Shown here piece after piece: positions 13,328-31,133 of a DNA stretch of 34,043 nucleotides; the stretch's first letter is position 1, and every line of letters starts with the position of its first letter. The DNA is taken from assembly GCA_947587485.1 (NCBI GenBank), contig CANPXZ010000007.1, positions 1-34,043 of the forward strand. Reading direction: 5' to 3'. The notes beneath the pieces are model-generated. The model was not told the DNA's origin and ran no database searches. It worked only from the letters and a program-made list of their open reading frames with translations. The stretch is from an uncultured Oscillospiraceae bacterium (GTDB taxonomy: Bacteria; Bacillota; Clostridia; Oscillospirales; Oscillospiraceae). The translations under genes were made by a program, and so were the position numbers.

Positions 13328-14227
13328 TTACATGGTTTCCTTTGGGAGAAGGCCGTGCCGGACCAGGACCTGGGCCAGGGCGGCCCTGTTGGCCTCGCCC
13401 ATGGGGACCAGGGGCAGGCGCATCCCGTCCCCGCACAGACCCATCATGGCCATGGCGGTCTTGACCGGGATAGGATTCACCTCCCGGAACAGGACGGAGA
13501 ACAGGTCCATGTACGCCCGGTTGAGGGAGGCTGCGGCGGCGTAGTCCCCGGCCAGGCACAGGGCGCAGAGCTTGCTGACCACGCCGGGGACGATGTTGGA
13601 GGCTACGGAGACGACGCCCTTGGCGCCCAGGGCCATCATGGCCACGGTGTCGCTGTCGTTGCCGCTGTAGAAGTTCAGCCCGCCGTCGCACAGGGCCACG
13701 GTCTTGGCGAACTCTCCGATGTTCCCGGAGGCCTCCTTGACGGCGTTGATGTTGGGGTGTCCGGCCAGGATCGCGTATGTTTCCGGGGCGATGCCCACGC
13801 CGGTGCGGCTGGGCACGTTGTAGAGGATGATGGGCAGGGCCGTCCGGTCCGCCACGTAGGTGAAGTGCTTCACCAGCCCCGCCTGGGTGGTCTTGTTATA
13901 GTAGGGCGTGACCATCAGAAGCCCGTCCGCGCCGGCCTGCTCGGCCCGCTTGGCCATATCCAGGGCGGCGGCGGTGTCGTTGGAGCCGATGCCGGCCACG
14001 ATCTTCATCCGGCCGGCGCTCTTTTCCGCCGCGAAGCGAAACATTGCCTCGTGCTCCTCCGGGGTGAGGGTGGCGCCCTCGCCGGTGGTGCCGCATACGA
14101 CCAGGGCGGCGGTGCCCCCGGCGGCCTGTGCCTCGATGAGGCGGGCAAAGGCGGCAAAGTCTATGGTGCCTTCCGACAGCGGCGTCACGATGGCGGTGCC
14201 GGAGCCGGTGAATACAGGCGTTTTCAA
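13328..14227 (-). CDS. dapA: 4-hydroxy-tetrahydrodipicolinate synthase
   Basis: Condenses aspartate semialdehyde with pyruvate, the first committed step to diaminopimelate and lysine. With the TTG start at 14227 it has 299 residues, the usual length; AGGAGG sits seven bases before that TTG, and MKTPVFTGSG is a normal N-terminus for the family. The frame runs further upstream but into a hairpin. The pyruvate-binding CGTTGEG lies at 45-51, the catalytic Tyr136 in LYNVPSRTG, and the Schiff-base Lys164 in AVKEASG. It lies downstream of asd, the gene for the preceding enzyme, so the pair forms a metabolic unit. Confidence 0.95.
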   Translation of the reverse strand: MKTPVFTGSGTAIVTPLSEGTIDFAAFARLIEAQAAGGTAALVVCGTTGEGATLTPEEHEAMFRFAAEKSAGRMKIVAGIGSNDTAAALDMAKRAEQAGADGLLMVTPYYNKTTQAGLVKHFTYVADRTALPIILYNVPSRTGVGIAPETYAILAGHPNINAVKEASGNIGEFAKTVALCDGGLNFYSGNDSDTVAMMALGAKGVVSVASNIVPGVVSKLCALCLAGDYAAAASLNRAYMDLFSVLFREVNPIPVKTAMAMMGLCGDGMRLPLVPMGEANRAALAQVLVRHGLLPKETM

Positions 14228-27497: not shown

Positions 27498-28310
27498 TTG
27501 AATATCCATGAGCTCCATGACAAGCTTTACGATGTGCTTTGTGTGATCGATGACATCTGCCGGCAGGAAAATATACGATATTTTCTGGATGGCGGCACCG
27601 CGATCGGCGCGGTCCGCGAAAAGGATTTTATTCCCTGGGATGACGATATGGACATCAAGGTCCTGGCGGAAGATTATCCCGCTTTCAAGCAGGCGATGGA
27701 GAAGTATCTGCCGGAGCATATGCATCTTCTGGAGCCAGACAGCTTTGCGCCCCACTTTTACGATTTTACCGTCCGGATCTATGACGACCGCTGGCTGATC
27801 CGCAAGGAGACGCCGGAGGATGCTTTTTATGGCGATATGCAGAACCGCGTAGGGACGGACGTTTTTATTTATTTTCCGGCGCCGGCCTCGCCTCTGGCCC
27901 AGCGCTGGATGCAGCTGCGGTACAAGATCGTCTACGGTATGGCAATGGCACACCGTTTCACTGTAAAGGACGAGAAGTATTCCTTTCTGCAAAAGCTCCA
28001 GGTGACGGTGCTGCGCTGCATGGGGCGGCTTTTCACATTCCGGCAGATCTATGGGATGTGGGAGAAGATCATGTGGAAGGAGCGGGGAGATACAGGCTAT
28101 TTCTTCACGGGTAATTACCCCCTTGCGTGGCTTTATTTCTTCCCCTCTGATGGCTATCACAGCGCGGTCATGGGACAGATCCGCAGCCGGCAGTTTCCCT
28201 TGCCGTCCTGCGTGGACAGGGAATTGAGCACGATCTACGGCGACTATATGAAGCCTCCGGAGGATAAGGGTATCTACATACAGCACCTTGACGCAGAGGA
28301 CATGGTCTGA
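27498..28310 (+). CDS. licD: LicD-family phosphotransferase (phosphorylcholine transfer)
   Basis: LicD enzymes move phosphorylcholine from CDP-choline onto a cell-surface glycan. It has 270 residues from a TTG at 27498, with AGAGG about ten bases upstream; no in-frame ATG is better placed. The family signature DGGTAIGAVREKDFIPWDDD at 31-50 contains the nucleotidyltransferase-like GG and the metal-binding DDDMD. No signal peptide was seen, so it acts on the cytoplasmic side. It heads a locus with licC, licA and licB, which supports choline as the substituent. The acceptor polymer is not known. The sequence is lower in GC than pcrA upstream. Confidence 0.9.
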   Translation: MNIHELHDKLYDVLCVIDDICRQENIRYFLDGGTAIGAVREKDFIPWDDDMDIKVLAEDYPAFKQAMEKYLPEHMHLLEPDSFAPHFYDFTVRIYDDRWLIRKETPEDAFYGDMQNRVGTDVFIYFPAPASPLAQRWMQLRYKIVYGMAMAHRFTVKDEKYSFLQKLQVTVLRCMGRLFTFRQIYGMWEKIMWKERGDTGYFFTGNYPLAWLYFFPSDGYHSAVMGQIRSRQFPLPSCVDRELSTIYGDYMKPPEDKGIYIQHLDAEDMV

Positions 28311-28383
28311 TGCGCGCGTGGAAAAAAGATGTGACACGGATACCTTATCGAACATCACAGGGCGGTGTCCCGGAGGCGGAGAT

Positions 28384-29256
28384 ATGAGCTACCAAGCAGA
28401 TAATGCCATCATCATGGCGGCGGGAACGTCCAGTCGTTTTGCGCCGCTTTCCTATGAGGTCCCGAAGGCGCTTGTGGAGGTGCGGGGAGAGATCCTCATT
28501 GAGAGGCAGATCCGGCAGATCCTGGATGCGGGCATACCGGAAGTGATCGTTGTAACAGGGTATAAGGGCGAGGAGCTTTTGTACCTGAGGAAGAAATTCG
28601 GCGTCCGTATCGTTGAAAACAGGGACTACCTGGCGAGAAACAACAACGGCAGCCTGCATGCCGCGCGGGAATATATTCGCAACTCCTATATTTGTTCATC
28701 TGACAATTATTTTTCTGTGAATCCCTTTGAAAAACAAGTGGAGGGCGCATACTACGCCGCCGTCTATGCGGAGGGACACACGGAAGAGTGGTGCATGGAG
28801 GAGGATGAAAACGGATACATAAGCGGCGTGACCATAGGCGGTGAAAACGCTTGGTACATGCTGGGGCATACATTTTGGGACGAGGCGTTCAGCAGGCAGT
28901 TTTTCCGGATCCTGGACGGCATCTATGACCTTCCGGAGACGAAGGGCCTGCTTTGGGAAAGTATTTTTTCCGCGCATCTGCACGAGCTGAAAATGCGGAT
29001 GCGCCGGTATCCTCCCTCCACGATTTTTGAGTTTGATACGCTGGACGAGCTGCGCGCGTTCGATGACAGCTATGTAACGAATACCCGGTCGCGTATCCTG
29101 CGGTCGGTCGCCGGGCAGCTTGGCTGCCGGGAGAGCGACATCCGAAGGGTGGAGGCGTATAAGGAGACGGACAACGCCGCAGCCGGTTTTCGGTTTCAGG
29201 TCGGACAGCGCACGTATGAGTATTGCTATCAAACCAAACAATGGAGGGAGATGTAA
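28384..29256 (+). CDS. licC: CTP:phosphocholine cytidylyltransferase
   Basis: Activates phosphocholine to CDP-choline for LicD. It has 290 residues from the ATG at 28384, which follows GGAGGCGGAG. The nucleotidyltransferase loop IIMAAGTSSRFAPLSYEVPKAL lies at 9-30, with the Mg-binding Asp107 in SSDNYF. It is some 60 residues longer than pneumococcal LicC (about 229); the extra part is a C-terminal region after about 225, with RILRSVAGQLGC. The upstream part of the frame (from 28288) overlaps licD and is not used. It lies between licD (73-base gap) and licA (4-base gap). Confidence 0.88.
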   Translation: MSYQADNAIIMAAGTSSRFAPLSYEVPKALVEVRGEILIERQIRQILDAGIPEVIVVTGYKGEELLYLRKKFGVRIVENRDYLARNNNGSLHAAREYIRNSYICSSDNYFSVNPFEKQVEGAYYAAVYAEGHTEEWCMEEDENGYISGVTIGGENAWYMLGHTFWDEAFSRQFFRILDGIYDLPETKGLLWESIFSAHLHELKMRMRRYPPSTIFEFDTLDELRAFDDSYVTNTRSRILRSVAGQLGCRESDIRRVEAYKETDNAAAGFRFQVGQRTYEYCYQTKQWREM

Positions 29257-29260
29257 GTCA

Positions 29261-30167
29261 ATGGCAAAGGAGATTCTGGCGGGCGATCTGCCCGCAGTCG
29301 GCAGCCTTGTGCAAAAAGTGCTCCATGCGGACAGCTATGCCCACATTGAGCGGCTGGGCGGACTGACCAACCACACGTACGCCGTGACGCTGCATAACGG
29401 GGAGCGGTATGTGGTCCGTCTGCCGGGAGAGGGGACGGAGGAGATGATCGTCCGAAAGGACGAACAGGTCAGTACGGAGCTGGCCTGCTCCGTCGGGATC
29501 GACACGGAGCTTCTGTACTTTGGTCCGGACGGATCTAAGGTGTCGCGCTATATCGACGGCGCGGTCACGATGTCCGCCGCCTCGATGAAGGAGCCTGCGC
29601 ATATCCGGCAGGCGGCGGCGATATTCAAAACGCTCCACACCTGCGGAAAGGATACCGGCGTGCCCTTTGAGGTGTTCGACATGGCCGGGAATTACGAGGC
29701 GATCATCCATAAGAATCATGTGCCCATGTATGAGGACTACGCGGCGGTCAAGGCCCGTGTCATGCAGATCAAGTCGGAGATCGACGCGGCCGTGGACGCG
29801 GCCAAGGTCCCCTGCCACAACGATCCGCTATGCGAGAATTGGGTGACCGGCGCGGACGGGAGAATGTATCTGATCGACTGGGAATACGCCGGAATGAACG
29901 ACGGCATGTGGGATCTGGCGGACGTCTCGATCGAGGCGGGATACGACAGAGAATGTGACCGGATGCTGCTGGGGGGGGTATTTAGATCGGGAACCCGATA
30001 AGGTAGACTGGCGTCATTTTTACGCCAGCAAGATCTATGTGGACTATCTCTGGACCCTGTGGGCAAAGACAAGAGTTCCCTTTGACGGGCAGCCGATGGA
30101 GGATTGGGCTGCCGAGCGCTATGCACGGTTGAAAGGAAATCTTGACCAGTTTGCTGATATTGCGTGA
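29261..30167 (+). CDS. licA: Choline kinase, frameshifted at a run of eight G
   Basis: Phosphorylates choline, the first step of phosphorylcholine decoration. The frame from the ATG at 29261 (AGGGAG upstream) codes 246 residues and stops at 30001. The catalytic HND (186-188, CHNDPLCENW) and DWE (206-208, LIDWEYAGMNDG) of the kinase fold are present. Just after DRMLLGG the sequence passes through GGGGGGGG (29971-29978). In the other frame the expected C-terminus continues directly, from YLDREPDK through DYLWTLWAKTR to QFADIA, with stop at 30167. With seven G the product would be a normal 301-residue kinase. As read here the last 60 residues are replaced by VFRSGTR, probably inactive. It is either a phase-variable OFF state or a sequencing error. 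Confidence 0.88.
29971..29978 (+). repeat. Poly-G tract (G8) in licA
   Basis: Eight consecutive G, the site where the licA frame breaks. Seven G joins both parts in frame; eight gives an early stop at 29999-30001. Homopolymers of this size are slippage-prone. Confidence 0.9.
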
Positions 30168-30182: not shown

Positions 30183-31133
30183 ATGTTTGCAGGGATCTTG
30201 GCAGGTATCACCTGGGCTTTAGAGACTATCACACTGGGCATCGCGCTGGCTATGACGCCGTTCGTCTCAACGGAGCAGGCGGTCTTTCTGGCGCCCTTTG
30301 TCAGCACGTTCCTCCATGACGCGTGCTCCGCGCTGTGGGCGACGGCCTATAACGGCGTACGCGGGAATCTGGGGAACGTATGGCGTGCATTCAACAAACG
30401 CGGCGGCCGGTTCGTAGTGCTGGCGGCGGTCATCGGCGGTCCCATCGGCATGACGGGCTATGTGCTCTCCATCAACTACATGGGCGCATCCATCGGCGCG
30501 GTGGCCAGCGCCGTATTCCCGGCGATCGGCGCGATTTTGGCGTACTTTTTCCTGAAGGAGAAGATGCAGTGGTACCGGTGGCTGCTTTTGATCGCCACGC
30601 TGCTGGGCGTATACGGTCTGAGCTATTCGCCGGAGATCAACATCACCAACTTTTGGCTGGGTCTTGCGGGTACGTTCATGTGCGCTTTTGGCTGGGGGAT
30701 CGAGGCGGTGATCCTGGCCAAGTGCATGCAGGACCCGGAGGTCAAGGATGAATACGCGCTGCAGATCCGCCAAACCACGTCGGCAGTGGTCTATGGCGTG
30801 ATCATCCTTCCGGTCCTGAAGGGTTGGGGCTTTACCGTGAGCCTGTTTACGTCGGGCACCGGCTGGCTTTTGCCGGTGATCGCGCTGGCGGCGCTGTTCG
30901 CCACCGTGTCGTATCTGTTTTACTACCGGGCGATCGCCCAGATCGGCGCTTCAAAGGCCATGGCGCTGAATGTTACCTATGCCGCCTGGTCCATCGTCTT
31001 CACAGTGATCCTCCTGCGGGATACGAGCGTTTTGACGCCGGTAACGATCCTCTGCTCGCTTGTCGTGCTGGTCTGCGGTATTTTTGCTGCAGCGGATTTC
31101 AAAGAGCTGTTTCCCGGCAAAAAGACCGAGTGA
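30183..31133 (+). CDS. licB: Choline permease of the LicB type (DMT/EamA family)
   Basis: Predicted choline uptake protein of the drug/metabolite transporter superfamily. It has 316 residues with ten hydrophobic segments in two EamA repeats (about 1-140 and 160-305). It is preceded by GGGGGGAAGAG and begins 15 bases after the end of the licA reading. Its identity as LicB comes from the locus; on sequence alone DMT transporters cannot be assigned a substrate. Together with LicA it would supply phosphocholine from host or dietary choline, since the locus shows no synthesis pathway. A strong terminator follows 22 bases after the stop. Confidence 0.87.
   Translation: MFAGILAGITWALETITLGIALAMTPFVSTEQAVFLAPFVSTFLHDACSALWATAYNGVRGNLGNVWRAFNKRGGRFVVLAAVIGGPIGMTGYVLSINYMGASIGAVASAVFPAIGAILAYFFLKEKMQWYRWLLLIATLLGVYGLSYSPEINITNFWLGLAGTFMCAFGWGIEAVILAKCMQDPEVKDEYALQIRQTTSAVVYGVIILPVLKGWGFTVSLFTSGTGWLLPVIALAALFATVSYLFYYRAIAQIGASKAMALNVTYAAWSIVFTVILLRDTSVLTPVTILCSLVVLVCGIFAAADFKELFPGKKTE

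Follow-up and report, generated by a model that had tools for sequence, protein, structure and literature searches.

The window (the whole stretch of DNA analysed here, 34,043 nucleotides of one contig) comes from a fragmented MAG of an uncultured gut-type Clostridia bacterium, 74% complete and in 201 contigs, and carries a licD-licC-licA-licB row on a single strand, with Pfam matches for all four genes that together characterise a Lic-1 locus. The row begins with a licD-like phosphorylcholine transferase gene (27498..28310, + strand; Pfam LicD, E 5e-24) and a licC-like nucleotidyltransferase gene (28378..29256, +; Pfam NTP_transf_3, E 7e-14), which precedes licA in relatives too. It continues with licA, whose present frame encodes a truncated choline kinase (29261..30001, +; Pfam Choline_kinase, E 1e-18), and with a licB-like permease gene of the EamA family (30183..31133, +; Pfam EamA, E 3e-14). 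The order licC-licA-licB was found at 38 of 70 homologous loci. Judged from sequence, LicC is a candidate phosphorylcholine cytidylyltransferase and LicB a candidate choline importer.

The licA frame opens with an ATG at 29261, runs into a tract of eight G (29971..29978, +; flanks T-G8-TA) and stops at 29999-30001, giving a product of 246 aa. On the 3' side of the tract another frame reads YLDREPDKVDWRHFYASKIYVDYLWTLWAKTRVPFDGQPMEDWAAERYARLKGNLDQFADIA up to a stop at 30165-30167, and this 3' part of licA (29979..30167, +), with its DYLWTLWAKTR...DWAAERY stretch, was placed by alignment to the LicA of S. pneumoniae (4r77). Apart from the break at G8 both halves of licA are without damage, the configuration of a contingency locus, in which a repeat tract within the coding sequence sets the frame; the length of the tract is known from one allele, the consensus of one MAG. 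A preliminary description of this DNA had located the frame break exactly at the eight G and the missing C-terminus, intact, in the other frame, and we found both to be so, the second frame being open to 30167. Of the interval it gave, 29955-30167, the end holds; the start, 16 bases before the tract, is that of an open reading frame listed mechanically from a GTG. The 34 kb contig has no run of at least seven G or C other than this candidate contingency tract. Poly-G runs are plainly avoided by the genes of this genome (about 21 G7 windows expected from dinucleotide shuffles of the window vs 2 seen), and since composition alone permits such runs, we do not use rarity by shuffling as an argument.

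The protein is recognisable as a member of the LicA family, with 68 bits to Pfam Choline_kinase against a cut-off of 29, and with both the HNDxxxxN-like catalytic motif (CHNDPLCEN) and the acidic WEY motif (LIDWEYAGMND). A LicA homologue aligned with 4r77 over its full length, and all 70 licA homologues are unbroken over the part compared, none having a tract at the G8 site; relatives uniform for G8 and devoid of a full-length licA, an outcome that the preliminary description had named as speaking against phase variation, are not what is found. At this site the homologues have Leu-Leu-x-x-Tyr with varied residues at x-x (most commonly Thr-Ala, Asp-Ala and Cys-Ala), which in the licA of this genome are Gly-Gly. 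The LW-x-x-W motif, present in 70 of 70 homologues, is here encoded 3' of the tract. The choline pocket of pneumococcal LicA is formed by Trp251, Trp254, Tyr268, Tyr197 and Val178 (PMC4364537). In the alignment to 4r77, whose chain numbering is offset by a 20-residue tag, Trp251 and Trp254 (the tryptophans of LW-x-x-W) and Tyr268 correspond to the part after the tract, and the chain read in the G8 frame ends before them, leaving this aromatic pocket outside the same polypeptide. By these sequence comparisons, this licA is a gene of the LicA family in an allele without a functional part, and the 246-aa LicA should be inactive, since the counterparts of the choline pocket are lost downstream of the tract. 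No second choline kinase was found in the 74% complete assembly.

The licA tract belongs to the same class as 18 other runs in its own genome, where pattern searches and sequence stretches, on which the genome counts rest, gave 19 runs of G8-G10 (five G8, thirteen G9 and one G10). Across 203 kb of tract-bearing contigs there were 4449 runs of G3, 38 of G6, 8 of G7, 5 of G8 and 13 of G9, which makes a second mode of run length at G9, and no run longer than G7 was found in 80 kb sampled evenly from the rest of the genome. Nearly all of the runs read pyrimidine-Gn-T-A/T, with T directly 3' of 17 of the 19 runs of at least G8 vs about 17-20% for G3-G6. Because of this genome-wide rise at G9 and the T after the runs, we regard the licA G8 as beyond chance. 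The tracts are concentrated in the polysaccharide clusters of contigs C4, C6, C27 and C61, where they are on the coding strand, and most lie in or next to glycan or surface genes. By Pfam, the tract genes and their neighbours include GT8, a tandem GT4 protein, SDR, sugar-nucleotide epimerases or dehydratases, RmlC, CapA, two acyltransferase-3 proteins, radical SAM proteins and DUF362, joined by AMP-binding CapK-like ligases that are under the Pfam cut-off and were assigned by sequence resemblance. A further tract, G9 and in frame, lies in the catalytic domain region of a 2573-aa surface subtilase with Ig-like domains (L132:433-8151, G000:C55), while the C45 run is just 5' of the start of an isocitrate-dehydrogenase-like gene and the C83 run is within no clear gene. 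The tracts are thus unusually long, as the G9 mode indicates, and appear to lie preferentially in surface genes, a preference judged from the Pfam gene list, random-gene control picks in GC-rich DNA being too often spurious ORFs. Some of them are in frame, some frame-breaking and some close to the 5' or 3' ends of genes, a mixture to be expected when one consensus captures a set of switches. We also observed on C27 a frame that runs through a G9 from a complete GT4-like glycosyltransferase into the C-terminal half of another (L127:7112-8635, G000:C27).

Among relatives, tracts were counted by a flanked pattern with a reversed control, because long G stretches in some assemblies confound plain poly-G counts across the family. 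The pattern Y-G9-T-W was counted 132 times across 35 genus genomes vs 7 times for the reversed control; 19 of these genomes have it, and at the level of the order 74 of 394 genomes do. In G001, G002 and other genomes of the genus, G stretches as long as about 27 lie at contig ends or close to them; they are probably artefacts of two-colour sequencing and were excluded from the tract counts. Genus tracts of at least G8 followed by T (n=124) were in frame in 42 cases, frame-breaking in 17, near a gene end in 35 and in short or unclear frames in 30, and the gene families that carry them comprise epimerases, glycosyltransferases, FkbM methyltransferases, acyltransferase 3, MBOAT, a permease family and choline-binding-repeat proteins. 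Differences in length were seen between two genomes (G011 and G032) that share a locus with 98% identity, where the G9 of one is in frame and the G10 of the other is not, among FkbM paralogues (G8, G9 and G10) and at loci of a small-gene family found without length bias (G6 to G11). In another family of the order, three tandem acyltransferase-3 genes have, at the same tract site, G9 in frame, G10 broken and G9 in frame (L393, G608:C2:71600-77700). Many matched tracts in relatives share one length, G9, a constancy that is partly selection since most genus loci were retrieved by the exact G9 pattern, the bias-free set being the own genome and a few loci. A search for sequence of the same species in viral contigs found none.

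Other tracts of the relatives lie in small genes or at gene ends. In genus genomes, families of small genes resembling peptide precursors with leaders, such as MSEEKKIQ[G9]TPEQE..GG, MTDEKKTL[G9]LTPEQ.. and MNEEMLKKL[G9]KSPEEV.., each have a G tract near codon 8-10, which is in frame in some of them and out of frame in others (L265, L306, L256, L257, L284, L288, L216, L286). On contig C9 of G031 (about 13641-14051; L206) a small peptide gene is present in three tandem copies, about 200 bases apart, each with G9 just before an FxSxxGC-like tail. At tracts of 3' ends two frames stop together and the third runs 17-45 codons to the start of the next gene (L125, L127, L129, L135, L249, L250, L289, L292, L304). 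One post-tract frame ended on the start of the next gene at 15 of 29 tracts vs 40% of control positions, a difference no more than suggestive of a possible phase-variable C-terminus or of translational coupling. A degron role for the Ala-Ala ends of many such tails was dropped, the ribosome-binding site of the next gene and the ATGA overlap explaining Ala-Ala.

The T after the runs is independent of the reading frame: among in-frame genus tracts the first G falls at codon position 1 in 12, at position 2 in 8 and at position 3 in 11. In licA the run stands in place of two codons, and the T that follows it opens the conserved Tyr codon. We know of no rule of T after the run for poly-G contingency loci. 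The near-constant T, its independence of frame, the sharp G9 peak and the two-codon placement in licA led us to consider that pyrimidine-G9-T-A/T could be a defined DNA element, placed by a specific process and not by chance slippage alone, a reading we regard as rather improbable. If it were true, contingency loci would be introduced into the surface genes of gut Clostridia throughout an order, by some unknown enzyme or bias of mutation.

The frame break in licA might have arisen as an error of the assembly consensus, in which case all cells would have one intact licA whose tract was miscounted. This we find unlikely: the source is indeed a fragmented assembly, Illumina reads are known to be disturbed by G tracts (PMC9187656) and artefact-like long G stretches occur at contig ends in some genus genomes, but the tract itself is real even if its length should be off by one, the homologues having varied codons there, and the same motif with its flanks is far more frequent in the genus than the reversed control, many of its occurrences being in frame. 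Moreover, a one-base mistake in a true G7-G9 tract would still permit licA to be a contingency locus. No more probable, to our mind, is a recent fixed loss-of-function frameshift that made licA a young pseudogene in this strain, the tract being merely the site. A single lesion in an otherwise undamaged licA fits such a loss equally well, and so does the licA of relatives, which is without the tract; however, the lesion falls in a rare class of tract with the same flanks as 18 other surface-gene runs, several of them in frame, and in relatives homologous tract loci are found both in frame and broken.

We give somewhat less credence still to RNA polymerase or the ribosome slipping at the tract, so that it would be read through and some full-length LicA always made. 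G runs can be slippery, a short perfect inverted repeat (ATCGGG-AA-CCCGAT) lies 3' of the licA tract, and stems after tracts have a mean of 3.8 vs 3.3 bp at random places (p about 0.013, sought post hoc). Against this, the excess of stems is weak, differing tract lengths at near-identical loci are changes at the level of DNA, and the many in-frame tracts need no recoding. A hairpin 3' of the tract as part of the device was likewise set aside, its effect being weak and post hoc.

Taken with the tracts of relatives, the evidence makes it likely that licA is a translational contingency locus with ON/OFF phase variation of phosphorylcholine by slippage, and one switch of a large phasome in Clostridia. 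Change of tract length by slipped-strand replication is an established mechanism for such tracts (PMC9187656, PMC2823697) and would, by our proposal, be the cause here, the length of the licA tract varying in its turn. Only one of the three length classes puts the halves of licA in one frame, and G8 falls outside it. The G8 allele would then give the 246-aa LicA without the choline pocket, which could not phosphorylate choline, so that the LicD acceptor glycan would have no phosphorylcholine, the OFF state. The licA tract is a member of a genome-wide set in surface-glycan and surface-protein genes, which would be a strategy common to the genus and to parts of the order. The preliminary description had proposed a phase-variable licA, and like tracts throughout the genome and the genus, together with the length differences at near-identical loci of relatives, support that proposal as very probably right; speaking against it are the shortness of G8, since short tracts of this kind mutate less, the 74% completeness of the MAG, the G9 shared by many matched tracts of relatives, and the licA of relatives, which is without the tract, so that the licA switch would be specific to the species or to a group of strains. 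About 19 like runs, mostly in surface sugar genes, lead us to propose that slippage probably turns parts of the surface coat on and off in this organism and its relatives, much as it does in Campylobacter and Helicobacter.

Poly-G phase variation is textbook knowledge for the mucosal Campylobacter, Helicobacter and Neisseria, and in lic1 of Haemophilus influenzae licA carries CAAT repeats. ChoP is phase-variable in H. influenzae (PMC2992063), and the pathway, the gene and the ON/OFF frameshift of choline kinase through repeat length are the same as proposed here, whereas in H. influenzae a tetranucleotide repeat lies near the 5' end and serves a Gram-negative lipooligosaccharide, and in the present Clostridia cluster a mononucleotide G tract lies late in licA. 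Neisseria pptA resembles our locus in having a coding poly-G tract tied to phosphorylcholine, its length correlating with phase-variable phosphorylcholine on pilin (PMC10434233); PptA is, however, a protein transferase unrelated to the Lic pathway, to which this licA belongs, and pathogenic Neisseria are without lic genes (PMC10434233). The phasomes of Campylobacter and Helicobacter similarly comprise tens of G tracts in each genome, of which many lie in surface-glycan genes and some at the 3' ends of genes, where they alter the C-terminus only (PMC6321876, PMC2823697), but they belong to another phylum and their tracts are often longer (G10-G17 in H. canadensis), whereas ours are sharply G9 with T nearly always after. 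In Bifidobacterium breve, also a Gram-positive gut commensal, a coding G tract slips in replication and turns a surface structure, the pilus, ON and OFF under gut selection (PMC9187656); there, in Actinomycetota, one or two pilus loci of G11-G12 are concerned, whereas the present Clostridia have tracts at many glycan loci and in licA.

The mechanism is thus known elsewhere, and what appears new is the lineage, the poly-G in licA and the flanking motif. For Clostridioides difficile, a review mentions phase variation through invertible promoters and related systems but not through poly-G (PMC11868660). In the open-access literature, as weak evidence, we found no description of a poly-G or homopolymer phasome in gut Firmicutes, Clostridia, Oscillospiraceae or Ruminococcaceae; a large Clostridia phasome of this kind is apparently undescribed. 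The larger finding reaches beyond licA itself: the lineage has many switches of this kind, licA among them. If the reading is true, gut Clostridia commensals of this order also hedge their surface, a phosphorylcholine switch included. Phosphorylcholine is recognised by C-reactive protein and by natural antibody. Choline-binding-repeat proteins are encoded in the same genome, on C10 and C1, and the licA switch might therefore also decide which proteins stay at the surface, several perhaps being released at once. On C10, two neighbouring long frames of 822 and 391 aa have many choline-binding repeats (G000:C10:22760-25943; L369-L375).
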